Assembly: GCA_013314775.1 (NCBI GenBank)
Contig: JABUFB010000018.1
Span: 1 to 64,000, forward strand
Reading direction: 5' to 3'
Source: Armatimonadota bacterium
GTDB taxonomy: Bacteria > Armatimonadota > Zipacnadia > Zipacnadales > JABUFB01
DNA length: 64,000 bases
Under the pieces are notes generated by a model. The model did no database searches and had not been told where the DNA came from. It saw nothing but the letters and a program-made list of their open reading frames with translations. Of this stretch, positions 50,549 through 54,671 are shown in pieces. A program made the position numbers and the translations under genes. How positions within the stretch are numbered: the first letter of the stretch is position 1; every line of letters begins with the position of its first letter.

Positions 50549-51298
50549 TCACCGGGCGATCACCAGCAGCTCCATGTCATCGAAGCCCGGCGCACGCTCG
50601 CGGCTGAAACGCCCCAGCTCGCAGGCGTAGATGCCGATTTCGGTCATCCCCAGCGTTTCCAGCAGCCACCGGATTTCGGACGGAGCGTAGTAGCGCTCAT
50701 TGCAGTGGATAGCATGGGTGACCCCGTCATCGTCGGCGAACTCGAAATCGGAGCAGGCGCGGAAGGTTTCCAGGTCCAGCGAGGTGGGGCCGGGCCCTTC
50801 CACGGTCTGTCCATCCGTCTGCCGGATCGTCCGCGCCAGCGCATACAGTGCATTCAGGGCGGTCATCACCAGCTTCCCGCCGGGCCTCAGCGCTCGGCAG
50901 GCGCCTTGCAGGATCCGGAAGTTCATGGCGTCGGTTTCCATGAGCGAGAAGCCGCCCTCGCAGATCATGATCGCCAGATCGAAGGCGGCCATGAAGTCGA
51001 GTTCCCGCGCGTCGCACTGGCGGAAGTCCACGGACACCCCTGCCTGGGAAGCTTTCTCGCGGGCGCGCGCCAGTTGCCCTTCGGAAAGGTCCACTCCAGT
51101 CACCTGATAGCCGCGTTTCGCCAGTTCAATGGCATGGCGTCCTGTACCGCAGCCGATGTCGAGGATGGTCTTCGCGCGGTCGTGCTCCAGTTCCTGTTCG
51201 ATGAAGTCTACCTCGCCCAGGGTGCCCTGGGTGTAGCACTCTTCATCATACTGTCGGGCGTAATTCGCAAATAGCGTCTGGTACCACTGCTGCTTCAT
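50549..51298 (-). CDS. SAM-dependent methyltransferase (class I)
   Basis: The protein is 249 aa from the ATG at 51298, which has AGGAGA 7 bases upstream; the longer frame is rejected. SAM-binding motifs are normal: ILDIGCGTGRHAIELAKRGYQVTGVDLS (about 48-75), then DARELDFMAAFDLAIMI and LRPGGKLVM. No domain outside the methyltransferase fold is seen, so the substrate, small molecule or macromolecule, cannot be named. It is convergent with the isomerase gene. It abuts the higBA region on its upstream side. Confidence 0.85.
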   Translation of the reverse strand: MKQQWYQTLFANYARQYDEECYTQGTLGEVDFIEQELEHDRAKTILDIGCGTGRHAIELAKRGYQVTGVDLSEGQLARAREKASQAGVSVDFRQCDARELDFMAAFDLAIMICEGGFSLMETDAMNFRILQGACRALRPGGKLVMTALNALYALARTIRQTDGQTVEGPGPTSLDLETFRACSDFEFADDDGVTHAIHCNERYYAPSEIRWLLETLGMTEIGIYACELGRFSRERAPGFDDMELLVIAR

Positions 51299-51398
51299 TG
51301 TCGTCTCCTGATCCAGCTTCAGCCTGGTGAACACTCCTCAGTATAGCGCGAAGGCGGCGGGGTGGTAAGGGGAGGGGGAAAGCCGGATCGGCGATGCG

Positions 51399-51439
51399 GA
51401 TGATAACGCTTGACGTTATTAACGCATCGCGTTATCATC
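51399..51439 (+). promoter_or_regulatory. higBA promoter with nested operator palindromes
   Basis: TTGACG (51410-51415) and TATCAT (51433-51438) are 17 bases apart. An 11-base inverted repeat, GATGATAACGC (51399-51409) and GCGTTATCATC (51429-51439), overlaps both boxes. Inside it a second perfect palindrome, CGTTA-T-TAACG (51414-51424), shares the same centre at 51419. This is well placed for autorepression by HigA. The -10 box ends nine bases before the higB ATG. Confidence 0.75.
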
Positions 51440-51446
51440 CATACAC

Positions 51447-51728
51447 ATGATCCGCAGCTTTCGGGACCGGGAGACCGAGCGGCTCTTCAAGCGCGAACGG
51501 CCGCGTCGCATTCCGGCAGCGATCCATCGACCCGCGCTGCGCAAGCTCGCGATCCTGCACGCGGCGACGGATCTGGCAGACCTGCGGGTGCCCCCCGGCA
51601 ACAGGCTGGAGCGGCTCATCGGTGACCGCGACGGACAGTGGAGCATACGCATCAATGAACAGTGGCGGATCTGTTTCGCCTGGAGGGACGGTGACGCATA
51701 CGATGTCGAGATCACGGACTACCATTGA
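51447..51728 (+). CDS. higB: HigB-type toxin (RelE/ParE superfamily)
   Basis: The protein is 93 aa. PPGNRLERLIGDRDGQWSIR and INEQWRICFAWRDGDAYDVE are signature HigB stretches near the C-terminus, ending in ITDYH. HigB enzymes cleave mRNA on the ribosome. The ATG at 51447 lies nine bases past the -10 box and has no ribosome-binding site, so the message may be leaderless. It overlaps the antitoxin gene by 26 bases. All expected active-site positions appear present. It lies in a gene patch unlike its surroundings. Confidence 0.9.
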   Translation: MIRSFRDRETERLFKRERPRRIPAAIHRPALRKLAILHAATDLADLRVPPGNRLERLIGDRDGQWSIRINEQWRICFAWRDGDAYDVEITDYH

Positions 51729-52044
51729 GACGCAGAGGGGAGCGCCGGCCAAGCCGCCGCCTGTACATCCGGGCGAGGTCCTCCTGGAGGAGTTCCTGCT
51801 GCCCCTTGGCATCAGCCAATACCGCCTGGCGAAGGACACGGGGGTCCCGCCGCGCCGCATCAACGAAATCGTCCACGGCAAGCGGGCGATCACCGCGGAC
51901 ACAGCCCTGCGCCTGTCGCGGTACTTCGGCACGAGTGAACCCTTCTGGCTCAACCTGCAGGCGCATTACGACCTGGAGATCGCGAAAGACCGCCTGGGCA
52001 AGACGCTGGAGGAGGACGTTGTGGTGTTCAAAGGGAGCCACTGA
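51703..52044 (+). CDS. higA: HigA-type antitoxin (HTH, XRE family)
   Basis: The protein is 113 aa from the ATG at 51703, inside the end of higB; no good ribosome site precedes it, so translation is probably coupled. The XRE-type helix-turn-helix covers about residues 22-75: PPVHPGEVLLEEFLLPLGIS, then QYRLAKDTGVPPRRINEIVHG and TADTALRLSRYFGTSEPFWL. This last motif is diagnostic of HigA. It should bind the palindromes at 51399-51439 and neutralise HigB. Residue spacing is normal for the family. Confidence 0.9.
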   Translation: MSRSRTTIETQRGAPAKPPPVHPGEVLLEEFLLPLGISQYRLAKDTGVPPRRINEIVHGKRAITADTALRLSRYFGTSEPFWLNLQAHYDLEIAKDRLGKTLEEDVVVFKGSH

Positions 52045-52120
52045 CTCCAGCGGCGTTCCTGCCTCCCCCGCAAATCCTGCGAGAGAGCGAAGTAACGCCG
52101 GGCCCCACGGCGGATGGCGC

Positions 52121-53560
52121 TCAGGTCAACGGGACGCCCTCGATGGCCTCGTCGTCGAGGTTCTTGAGTACCTCCTTGAGTGACTTCTCCTGCGTGCGCG
52201 CCAGCAGCTTGACGAGCACGTCAGTGCAGATGCCCTGGACCTCGGTGACGAGAGCCTCGCCGTCCCTCTGTCCCTGCGACTTGTCCCTTTTGTTGATGGC
52301 GGTGGCGAGATCCGGTTGGGTGCCGTGCACCACATCGCTCCGGTAGTCGTAGAGCTTCCGGAGTGTCTCGAAAACACTAGCTCTGCTGAGCAGGCGCGCG
52401 GCTCGGAGGCCGAGGCGGAAACTCAGCTCACCCTTACCATCGATCAGCGCGCTCTCAAGCAGGATGGCCATGTCAATGAGCTTGTCCTCCAAGTAGCGCC
52501 TGTCGTCCAGCCCATTGTACCTCCGCAGAGCAATGGCCAGCTTCCCGTCCTCGTTGGCCTTGAGTTGCTGCCACAGGCCCAGCAGATCGGGCAACAGGTC
52601 TTTAGTGAGGCGGAATGTCGTCTCTTTGCCTGAATCCTCCTTGTTGAACCTCGGCTTTCCAAGGGCATTCAGTGACACAGGACGCGTCCACGAGTTCTGG
52701 TCTAGGCAGGTCCGGACGTTCTCAAATCGCGAACGCACTTCGAGCCAGTGGAGCCACTTCGGGACGCCAGGCTGCCTCAGCAGTCTACAGGCGGTGATGA
52801 ACCGCTCGATGTTGCTGAGAACAACCTGTCCGTGCAATCCGCCGTCCCAATCGTAGGGCGTCTGGATTCGTAGCACGCAGCCGGACCCGAAGTAGTAGTT
52901 CAGATCATTGCAGAAGGCGTTCAGGTCGTTCCAAAGGGATGGTTCCCACGAGGCCACTTCATCGGAGGTCAGCCGACCAAGCGAGGTCCGTTCATCGAGC
53001 GCTGTCTCGTCAACCTCGCACTCGAGACAACGCAGAGGGACCACGATTCGCCGCAGGTACCCCCCGTCACCAAGGAATGCCTCGTACTCTTGGTAGAGGT
53101 TCTCGAAGACGTCCTCGTCGAAGTGCCACTCATCCAGGCTCCTTGCGTACTCGTGGATGAACGAGTCCACCCCCCACCGGGTAAAACGCCAGTAGTCGAC
53201 GTGCTCTTGCGGGGCCGTCGACTCGTGCTCGCGGGAATGTCTGAGGTCCTTTTCCTCCCAGACCTGCTCTTCCCATCGGCCCAGAATGTCTCCGATTCCG
53301 TGCTCTGCGCAGACCGCGCAGATCGTGGTGTAGAGCTCCTGGGGGACGTTGAGTTCCCCGCTGGCGCTGCGCCTGGCGAAGGGGATCCGTACAGGTACCC
53401 TACCCGGAGTCCACCGCCCGTCAGGGTCAAGCACAGGTCCGTCGGTCTCGCACTGGATGCAGGTGGATATGGTCTCAAAGAAACTATGCGCCGTGAGGGC
53501 CTCGACGGCCTTGCGCAATGCGACCTTGAGATCCGCCTTCACCTGCTGGCGGTCGTCCAT
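52121..53560 (-). CDS. HEPN-like (ApeA-type) protein with three CxxC pairs; candidate defence gene
   Basis: The protein is 479 aa from the ATG at 53560 (GGGAGG upstream). The C-terminal third reads as a HEPN fold: helices LIDMAILLESALIDGKGELSF and RLGLRAARLLSRASVFETLRKLYDYRSDVVHG. Arg407-x4-His412 (RSDVVH) fits the R-x4-6-H ribonuclease motif, and the LYDxRSxxVHG context is close to Apea-type HEPN domains. The first 190 residues hold three CxxC pairs (Cys34/37, 81/84, 178/181), probably a zinc-binding part. Known ApeA is an abortive-infection protein. Function here is inferred. It is convergent with higBA and starts 31 bases after the Gfo/Idh gene on the same strand. Confidence 0.65.
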   Translation of the reverse strand: MDDRQQVKADLKVALRKAVEALTAHSFFETISTCIQCETDGPVLDPDGRWTPGRVPVRIPFARRSASGELNVPQELYTTICAVCAEHGIGDILGRWEEQVWEEKDLRHSREHESTAPQEHVDYWRFTRWGVDSFIHEYARSLDEWHFDEDVFENLYQEYEAFLGDGGYLRRIVVPLRCLECEVDETALDERTSLGRLTSDEVASWEPSLWNDLNAFCNDLNYYFGSGCVLRIQTPYDWDGGLHGQVVLSNIERFITACRLLRQPGVPKWLHWLEVRSRFENVRTCLDQNSWTRPVSLNALGKPRFNKEDSGKETTFRLTKDLLPDLLGLWQQLKANEDGKLAIALRRYNGLDDRRYLEDKLIDMAILLESALIDGKGELSFRLGLRAARLLSRASVFETLRKLYDYRSDVVHGTQPDLATAINKRDKSQGQRDGEALVTEVQGICTDVLVKLLARTQEKSLKEVLKNLDDEAIEGVPLT

Positions 53561-53591
53561 GGCTATCGCCTCCCTATCGGGCTGGTCACCC

Positions 53592-54671
53592 TTACCTCCC
53601 CCACACCTCATGCGGGGTCTTGTCACGCGGCGCGTTGTACGGCCACGTCACCTTCCGACCCGTGCCGGCGCTTTCGTACGCCGCCAGGATGATCTCCAGC
53701 ACTGCCCGGCCGTCCTCGCCCGTCTCCAGTGGCTCCGTGTCGTTCAGCACGCAGTCCACGAAATGCGCAAGCTCCTGCGGGAAGCCGTAATTCCATGCTT
53801 CCTCGTACATGGTGAAGCTCCAGCCCATCGTGCTCCCCGCTTTCTCCACAGCGTAGTCATAGCCCCGCTTGCTGTAGGTCTGGAAGGCGCTGCCGTGGAG
53901 CAGGTCGCATATAATCACGCCCTCGGAACCGTACAGTTCGATGCGGTCGTCCATGCCCCCGGGTTTCGCCCAGGACTCCTCGGCGACCCCGCGCGCGCCG
54001 CCCTCGAACTCCACCACGATCAGCGAGTCATCGTCGCCCTTCGTCCTGTCGCCATGGACGAAAGTGCCCATGTCCGCCCAGACGCTCTTCACTTGCGGCT
54101 TGCCCAACATCCAGCGGAAGTACTCGAAGGCGTGGCAGCCCATGTCGAGAGTGACGCCGCCGCCGGAGCGCTCCACATCCCAGAACCACGGCATGTGCGG
54201 GCCGTCGTGCTTTTCGCACTGCTTGATACGGAAAAGTTTCCCCAGGGCGCCGGAGTCGCAGAGCTGCTTTGCGCGGACGTACTTGGGGGTGAAACAGAGC
54301 TCCTCGGCGTACATGAGCTTGACGCCCTGCTCGCGGCAGGTGTCGATCATCCGGTCGGCTTCGGCGAGAGTGGGACAGAGAGGCTTCTCGCAGATGACGT
54401 GCTTCTTCGCGAGTGCGGCGTCGCAGCAGACCCGGCAGTGCAGGTCATTGGGCAGGCACATGAGCACCACGTCGACCTCGGGCAGATCGAGCACGGCGCG
54501 GTAGTCGGTGAAGTGCTTGCCGATGGCGTGCTTCGCGGCAAAGGCCTCGACATGTTCCGGTGTGGGTGAAGCGACCGCGACCGCCCGGGCATTGTGCATC
54601 TTCTTGATCGATTCCACGTGGATCTCCGCGACAAACCCGGAGCCGATGATGCCGATACCGACCTGGTCCAT
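53592..54671 (-). CDS. Gfo/Idh/MocA-family oxidoreductase
   Basis: The protein is 359 aa from the ATG at 54671 (GGAGG 7-8 bases upstream). The NAD(P) Rossmann site is GIIGSGFVAEIHVESIKKM, and CEKPLCPTLAEAD carries the family's Glu-Lys-Pro. The C-terminal domain includes GGGVTLDMGCHAFEYFRW, where the His and Asp positions match the usual catalytic region. It probably oxidises a sugar or inositol-like cyclic polyol at the level of an aldehyde or ketone. The substrate is unknown. It is divergent from the GH43-like gene at 54825 and lies upstream of the HEPN gene. Confidence 0.85.
   Translation of the reverse strand: MDQVGIGIIGSGFVAEIHVESIKKMHNARAVAVASPTPEHVEAFAAKHAIGKHFTDYRAVLDLPEVDVVLMCLPNDLHCRVCCDAALAKKHVICEKPLCPTLAEADRMIDTCREQGVKLMYAEELCFTPKYVRAKQLCDSGALGKLFRIKQCEKHDGPHMPWFWDVERSGGGVTLDMGCHAFEYFRWMLGKPQVKSVWADMGTFVHGDRTKGDDDSLIVVEFEGGARGVAEESWAKPGGMDDRIELYGSEGVIICDLLHGSAFQTYSKRGYDYAVEKAGSTMGWSFTMYEEAWNYGFPQELAHFVDCVLNDTEPLETGEDGRAVLEIILAAYESAGTGRKVTWPYNAPRDKTPHEVWGR

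Follow-up and report, generated by a model that had tools for sequence, protein, structure and literature searches.

A candidate stand-alone HEPN ribonuclease effector at an apparent insertion site beside a Gfo/Idh/MocA gene in Armatimonadota

Introduction

HEPN domains carry an R-x4-6-H motif that serves as a metal-independent RNase active site (PMC3710099). The nearest tested analogue of the protein described here, likened by description and not by sequence, is Tha of S. aureus prophages, an R-x4-H HEPN RNase that is switched on by phage tail proteins and gives no protection as the H270A variant (PMC11087260). Other comparable systems include the AbiJ/AbiU2-type proteins, HEPN-based Abi proteins among which AbiJ has variable N-terminal domains preceding a C-terminal HEPN domain in a sensor-plus-RNase logic (PMC3710099), and ApeA (PF18739), a defense protein with a C-terminal HEPN domain behind a large N-terminal region. 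HEPN proteins have also been described as additional BREX effectors (PMC12839542).

We analyzed 64,000 nucleotides of an Armatimonadota genome (assembly GCA_013314775.1, contig JABUFB010000018.1, positions 1 to 64,000; hereafter the window), in which an ORF on the reverse strand (52121-53560) encodes a 479 aa HEPN-domain protein. Like Tha, this protein stands alone, has a C-terminal R-x4-H HEPN domain behind an N-terminal part without a known domain, and is predicted to be an abortive-infection RNase, whereas Tha has 301 aa, is prophage-borne, and is paired with the control gene Ith. The window protein has no Pfam match to the AbiJ/AbiU2-type HEPN families, and its RS..VH motif differs from the RNY..H consensus of ApeA. 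HEPN-MNT toxins (PDB 5yep, 7bxo, 8xdj) were among its best structural matches (Z 8.8-9.1), but those toxins are small single domains and no MNT antitoxin gene lies beside the window gene. HepS of the Gifsy-1 prophage, a prophage protein on a phage tail component (PDB 9oik, bound to the lambda J tail tip), matched weakly, at Z 5.8 and rmsd 9.6.

Gene and domain organization

The HEPN gene (Table 1) starts 31 bp downstream of the stop codon of a same-strand gene for a Gfo/Idh/MocA oxidoreductase, and other window genes around it encode sugar catabolism and carA. A preliminary description made from the sequence alone had placed an R-x4-H motif at residues 407-412 and three CxxC pairs in the first 190 residues. 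Both were borne out exactly, as R407-SDVV-H412 and as CIQC 34-37, CAVC 81-84, and CLEC 178-181.

Table 1 Features of the HEPN locus, in window coordinates.
Feature	Position	Strand	Basis
higB toxin gene, outside the inserted segment, older resident	51447..51728	+	HigB-like_toxin 2e-20; in G001 and G003 without the HEPN gene
higA antitoxin gene, outside the inserted segment, older resident	51757..52044	+	HigA 7e-33; profile match starts about 51757, longer ORF opens 51622
Degenerate 20-bp copy of the Gfo/Idh 3' end by higA, taken as the old end	52062..52081	+	16/20, at the position predicted from the empty site
HEPN-domain protein gene	52121..53560	-	479 aa, ATG start at 53560, ribosome-binding site GGGAGG
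C-terminal HEPN domain, residues 318-479	52124..52609	-	Family profile built without the window protein matches (E 2.9e-18); top VIA-align rows for the model are HEPN structures
R407-S-D-V-V-H412, predicted metal-independent RNase active site	52325..52342	-	Conservation; motif role from PMC3710099
N-terminal and central region, residues 1-317, variable, presumed sensor/regulator	52610..53560	-	Residues 144-186 resemble the central segment of the family; CxxC pairs private
Gfo/Idh/MocA oxidoreductase gene, 3' end is the insertion site	53592..54665	-	PF01408 3e-26; orthologues
Live Gfo/Idh/MocA 3' end, one border of inserted segment 52062-53594	53595..53614	+	20-bp match and empty-site comparison

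Shuffling of the HEPN protein gave an R-x4-H expectation of 0.86 per shuffled copy, so the motif alone carries no meaning. R407 and H412 are meaningful because the motif stood at the same place in 23/23 aligned relatives, of which some Armatimonadota rows had been chosen by a motif filter, so that their motif is no independent evidence, while the 12 plasmid and haloarchaeal rows had not. The acidic residue E369 of helix 2 was near-invariant in the family alignments. The residue after the arginine is S408 in the window protein and S, G, or N in the family (N in several haloarchaeal relatives); in the HEPN superfamily this position usually holds a polar residue, mostly N, D, or H.

The three CxxC pairs were unlikely by chance (p=0.0014 by shuffling the HEPN protein sequence) and private to the window protein: the 23 relatives lacked them, and the single pair of the Leisingera protein is unrelated. 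Zinc sensing as a conserved function is therefore not supported, and the zinc-type sensor half suggested in the preliminary description was rejected as a family trait.

Fold of the C-terminal domain. The model of residues 318-479, built on a two-sequence alignment (mean pLDDT 51, pTM 0.46), ran from helix 1 through helix 2, which holds E369 (position 52 within model helix 40-55), and an inserted helix to helix 3, with R407 and H412 at its end, and helix 4. The same order is described for HEPN domains (PMC3710099), in which two alpha-hairpins have an insert between helices 2 and 3, helix 2 bears an acidic residue, and helix 3 closes with the motif; at pLDDT 51, the agreement in helix order and in similarity to solved HEPN domains is weaker than it looks. 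Foldseek alone gave no significant match, the best being the sacsin HEPN domain (E 0.36, probability 0.97). With VIA-align, the 20 best solved matches were nearly all HEPN domains (Z 7.3-9.2), including sacsin, HEPN-MNT toxins, AF0298, and AbiV, and the first clear non-HEPN match was a designed helical protein at Z 6.3; for helical bundles, Z below about 13 may reflect a common arrangement. Given the low confidence of the model, these structural matches are support and not proof, and a full-length AlphaFold model on two sequences (pLDDT 36) was useless, so that the structural evidence covers the C-terminal part only. Family conservation, helix order, and structural neighbors together support the reading of the C-terminal part as a HEPN domain.

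Relatives of the HEPN protein

Used as a query against 291 Armatimonadota genomes, the HEPN protein had any match in only four. Two were relatives of the HEPN part (44% identity, E 3e-10 and 5e-10), in G198 and G149. G024 has a relative of the N-terminal region (L002:1270-2460), broken by a TAG and continuing into a repeat-rich region. Further matches in the phylum (L020 and L022, E above 4e-3) were discarded, as they overlay unrelated ORFs (murE/murF-like in L022). The whole protein had no tblastn match among plasmids and phages, and searches of genome and viral contigs with single-sequence patterns, which reach close relatives only, plus viral searches with relatives and alignments, returned only the G149 contig again.

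A three-sequence profile of the HEPN part brought in further proteins, and plasmid searches led to relatives in Cupriavidus, Leisingera, Rhodococcus, and haloarchaea, several of them labeled "HEPN domain-containing protein" in RefSeq. By these searches, the relatives are spread over Armatimonadota, proteobacterial and actinobacterial plasmids, and haloarchaea, with phyla beyond Armatimonadota sampled through plasmids only. A profile from seven haloarchaeal members alone found the window protein at E 2.9e-18 among 2,300 sequences (best shuffle 0.1), with the match spanning residues 324-473. The profile together with G073 and G198 gave a weak separate match at residues 144-186 (4e-5, 43 residues), so the central region is probably shared with the family too.

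The window protein had zero matches in Pfam, PADLOC, and NCBIfam, and PDB sequence searches with it gave nothing useful. None of the scanned family members scored above cut-off for any Pfam or NCBIfam model, and PADLOC returned weak matches for single relatives only. The window protein had one weak PHROG match of unknown function at residues 371-414 (E 6e-4). In a check against CARF-HEPN proteins (Csm6/Csx1), it had no Pfam CARF match and one relative weakly matched the CARF_HEPN model (E 0.026). As judged from these model searches, the HEPN clade is wide and covered by no Pfam, NCBIfam, or PADLOC model.

The preliminary description had pointed to ApeA as the known relative, and membership of that family (HEPN_Apea plus the ApeA N-terminal domain) would fit an R-x4-H motif that is likewise C-terminal behind a large N-terminal region. 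However, HEPN_Apea (PF18739) gave no hit in the protein's own genome, not even at E 10, though the same model found members in six other Armatimonadota genomes, four of them above the curated cut-off (best 2e-26). Those members mostly had the motif TRNY..H and a different body. A profile-profile comparison of HEPN_Apea with the present family by hhalign gave a probability of 0.6% (E 0.095), and the ApeA N-terminal domain (about 300 residues, mostly strands) had no Pfam match in the window protein or its relatives. The link to ApeA was thus not borne out, and membership is highly improbable.

Insertion at the Gfo/Idh/MocA 3' end

The HEPN gene and higA are convergent, with 76 bp between their stop codons. 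This adjacency is what would favor the HEPN protein as a part or extra toxin of the higBA module, and the preliminary description had set the gene in a small toxin-antitoxin patch. The higBA pair is truly adjacent, with good matches for both genes (Table 1). Against a single unit stand the convergent orientation, a promoter-like site of higBA's own, the presence of higBA without the HEPN gene in two relatives (beside Gfo/Idh in the same-genus G001, and with changed gene order in G003), and the annotation of the plasmid relatives examined, none of which lies beside higBA. Judged by gene content in these genomes, the link between the HEPN gene and higBA is accidental and higBA is the older resident; a shared module is scarcely credible.

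The promoter-like site, sigma-70-like, lies just before higB at 51410-51438 (TTGACG, 17 bases, TATCAT). An inverted-repeat-like sequence around it could be a HigA operator.

Contig C682 of G001 aligned to the window in two blocks, one at 50551-52035 (methyltransferase and higBA, 89%) and one starting at 53589 (Gfo/Idh, 90%). The blocks are 14 bp apart, with the HEPN gene exactly missing. In G011 the methyltransferase gene directly followed the Gfo/Idh gene. With the HEPN gene lacking at the locus in G001, G003, and G011, the gene arrived alone at the Gfo/Idh 3' end. Comparison of these loci showed an insertion at the Gfo/Idh/MocA 3' end independent of higBA. Since the locus is without the gene in other relatives as well, a deletion in G001 is the less likely course.

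Besides the live end, position 52062 (16/20) held the sole match of at least 15/20 to the 20-bp Gfo/Idh 3' end within the window, and this is the place of the live 3' end in the empty site. The local-alignment score of this remnant, attained by 15% of random stretches, is not significant alone; what speaks for the remnant is that the match is the only one in the window and falls at the predicted place. The sequence is most simply read as an insertion of segment 52062-53594 that supplied a new 3' end, while the old one stayed behind and decayed. The segment had a GC content of 61.1% vs 64.3% for the window (sd 1.6), among the lowest 2.7% of same-size windows. The gene had previously been judged by eye less GC-rich than its neighbors, which is true, but the effect is mild, with carA in the same window at 60.4%.

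Reuse of the site. The Gfo/Idh/MocA 3' end resembles a repeated insertion site, with differing cargo and decayed end copies in the window and at five other loci (L042, L051, L050, L071, L072); no integrase was seen in the cargo at these ends. Contig C567 of G001 had the same 3' end followed by a MazE-type antitoxin (3.5e-11), a PIN toxin (2e-8), and an EcoRI-type methylase (2.6e-40). The G001 assembly is fragmented with 6% contamination, so C567 may be a second strain. In G002 (L051:6931-7700), a 745 bp MazE/PIN pair with a disrupted PIN toxin was flanked by two 25-bp Gfo-end copies (24/25 identical), followed downstream by an AbiTii-like ORF (E 0.0085, below cut-off) and then by older Gfo-end fragments. 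Extra Gfo-end fragments were also found downstream in G003, G007, and G012, and the 25-bp Gfo end, allowing up to 3 mismatches, occurred nowhere else in the genomes of these relatives. The site is not purely defensive, since its further cargo included a sulfatase and an acetyltransferase.

Decay is seen in other segments inserted here, such as the disrupted PIN gene and Gfo-end fragments of G002, and the G024 relative is broken by its stop. The window gene could likewise be a passenger on a mobile segment, inactive or in decay. Its copy is nevertheless intact, with a ribosome-binding site and all conserved HEPN residues, which makes such a passenger improbable.

Predicted function

Defense context. 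Relatives elsewhere lie among defense genes. A haloarchaeal relative (L032:5677-7212), annotated "hypothetical protein", is inside a BREX-5 locus (pglX-pglZ and helicase) between pglZ and the helicase gene, and a Cupriavidus plasmid relative (L027:3657-7014) adjoins putAbiC and Wadjet-type DUF3375/DUF4194/SbcC genes. Of other relatives, one is near McrC (McrBC) and one near AbiEi and DUF262 genes. A Rhodococcus plasmid relative (L023:4152-6927) is placed two genes ahead of a RAMP-superfamily CRISPR-type protein.

We consider the window protein a candidate stand-alone HEPN ribonuclease effector of the abortive-infection type, with a rough probability of 0.7 and with its activity predicted. The earlier reading as an undescribed defense protein gained from the variable site shared with defense-type genes, from plasmid relatives beside defense systems, and from the lack of any Pfam, PADLOC, or NCBIfam match, while the function itself is a prediction.

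A housekeeping or stress role in RNA processing or RNA binding would be the main departure from this. HEPN domains also act in RNA processing (PMC3710099), the window neighbors are sugar catabolism genes and carA, and a sulfatase and an acetyltransferase are among the cargo of the site. But the gene is missing from the closest relatives and rare in the phylum (4/291 genomes with any match), it occupies a variable site used by toxin-antitoxin, methylase, and AbiTii-like genes, and plasmid relatives lie beside BREX, Wadjet, McrBC, and putAbiC genes. We regard a housekeeping role as unlikely.

Proposed mechanism. As a ribonuclease effector, the HEPN gene would be expressed through read-through from the Gfo/Idh gene, and the variable N-terminal and central region (about residues 1-317) would keep the protein inactive until that region senses a trigger made by a phage or by infection. 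The N-terminal half is tied only weakly to the family, by the 43-residue match, so the nature of the trigger is a guess. Once triggered, the HEPN domains may pair and cleave RNA at R407/H412 without metal, and the cell would then cease to grow and to make phage, an outcome shown for Tha in S. aureus (PMC11087260).

Implications

Extending from this locus, we tentatively suggest, at somewhat less than even odds, an unnamed family of single-gene HEPN immune effectors that reaches from Armatimonadota to haloarchaea and has fast-changing N-terminal sensors, together with a Gfo/Idh/MocA 3' end that acts as a recombination site. Integrase-free defense segments of ~0.7-1.5 kb would be added there successively, each with a new copy of the gene end and with the old one left behind.

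The findings point to a widespread, unmodeled HEPN clade that present defense-finding libraries overlook, and the list of members adjoining BREX, Wadjet, and McrBC systems is ready for use. For Armatimonadota, of which few phages have been studied, the insertion site is a natural setting in which to test how single defense genes move.
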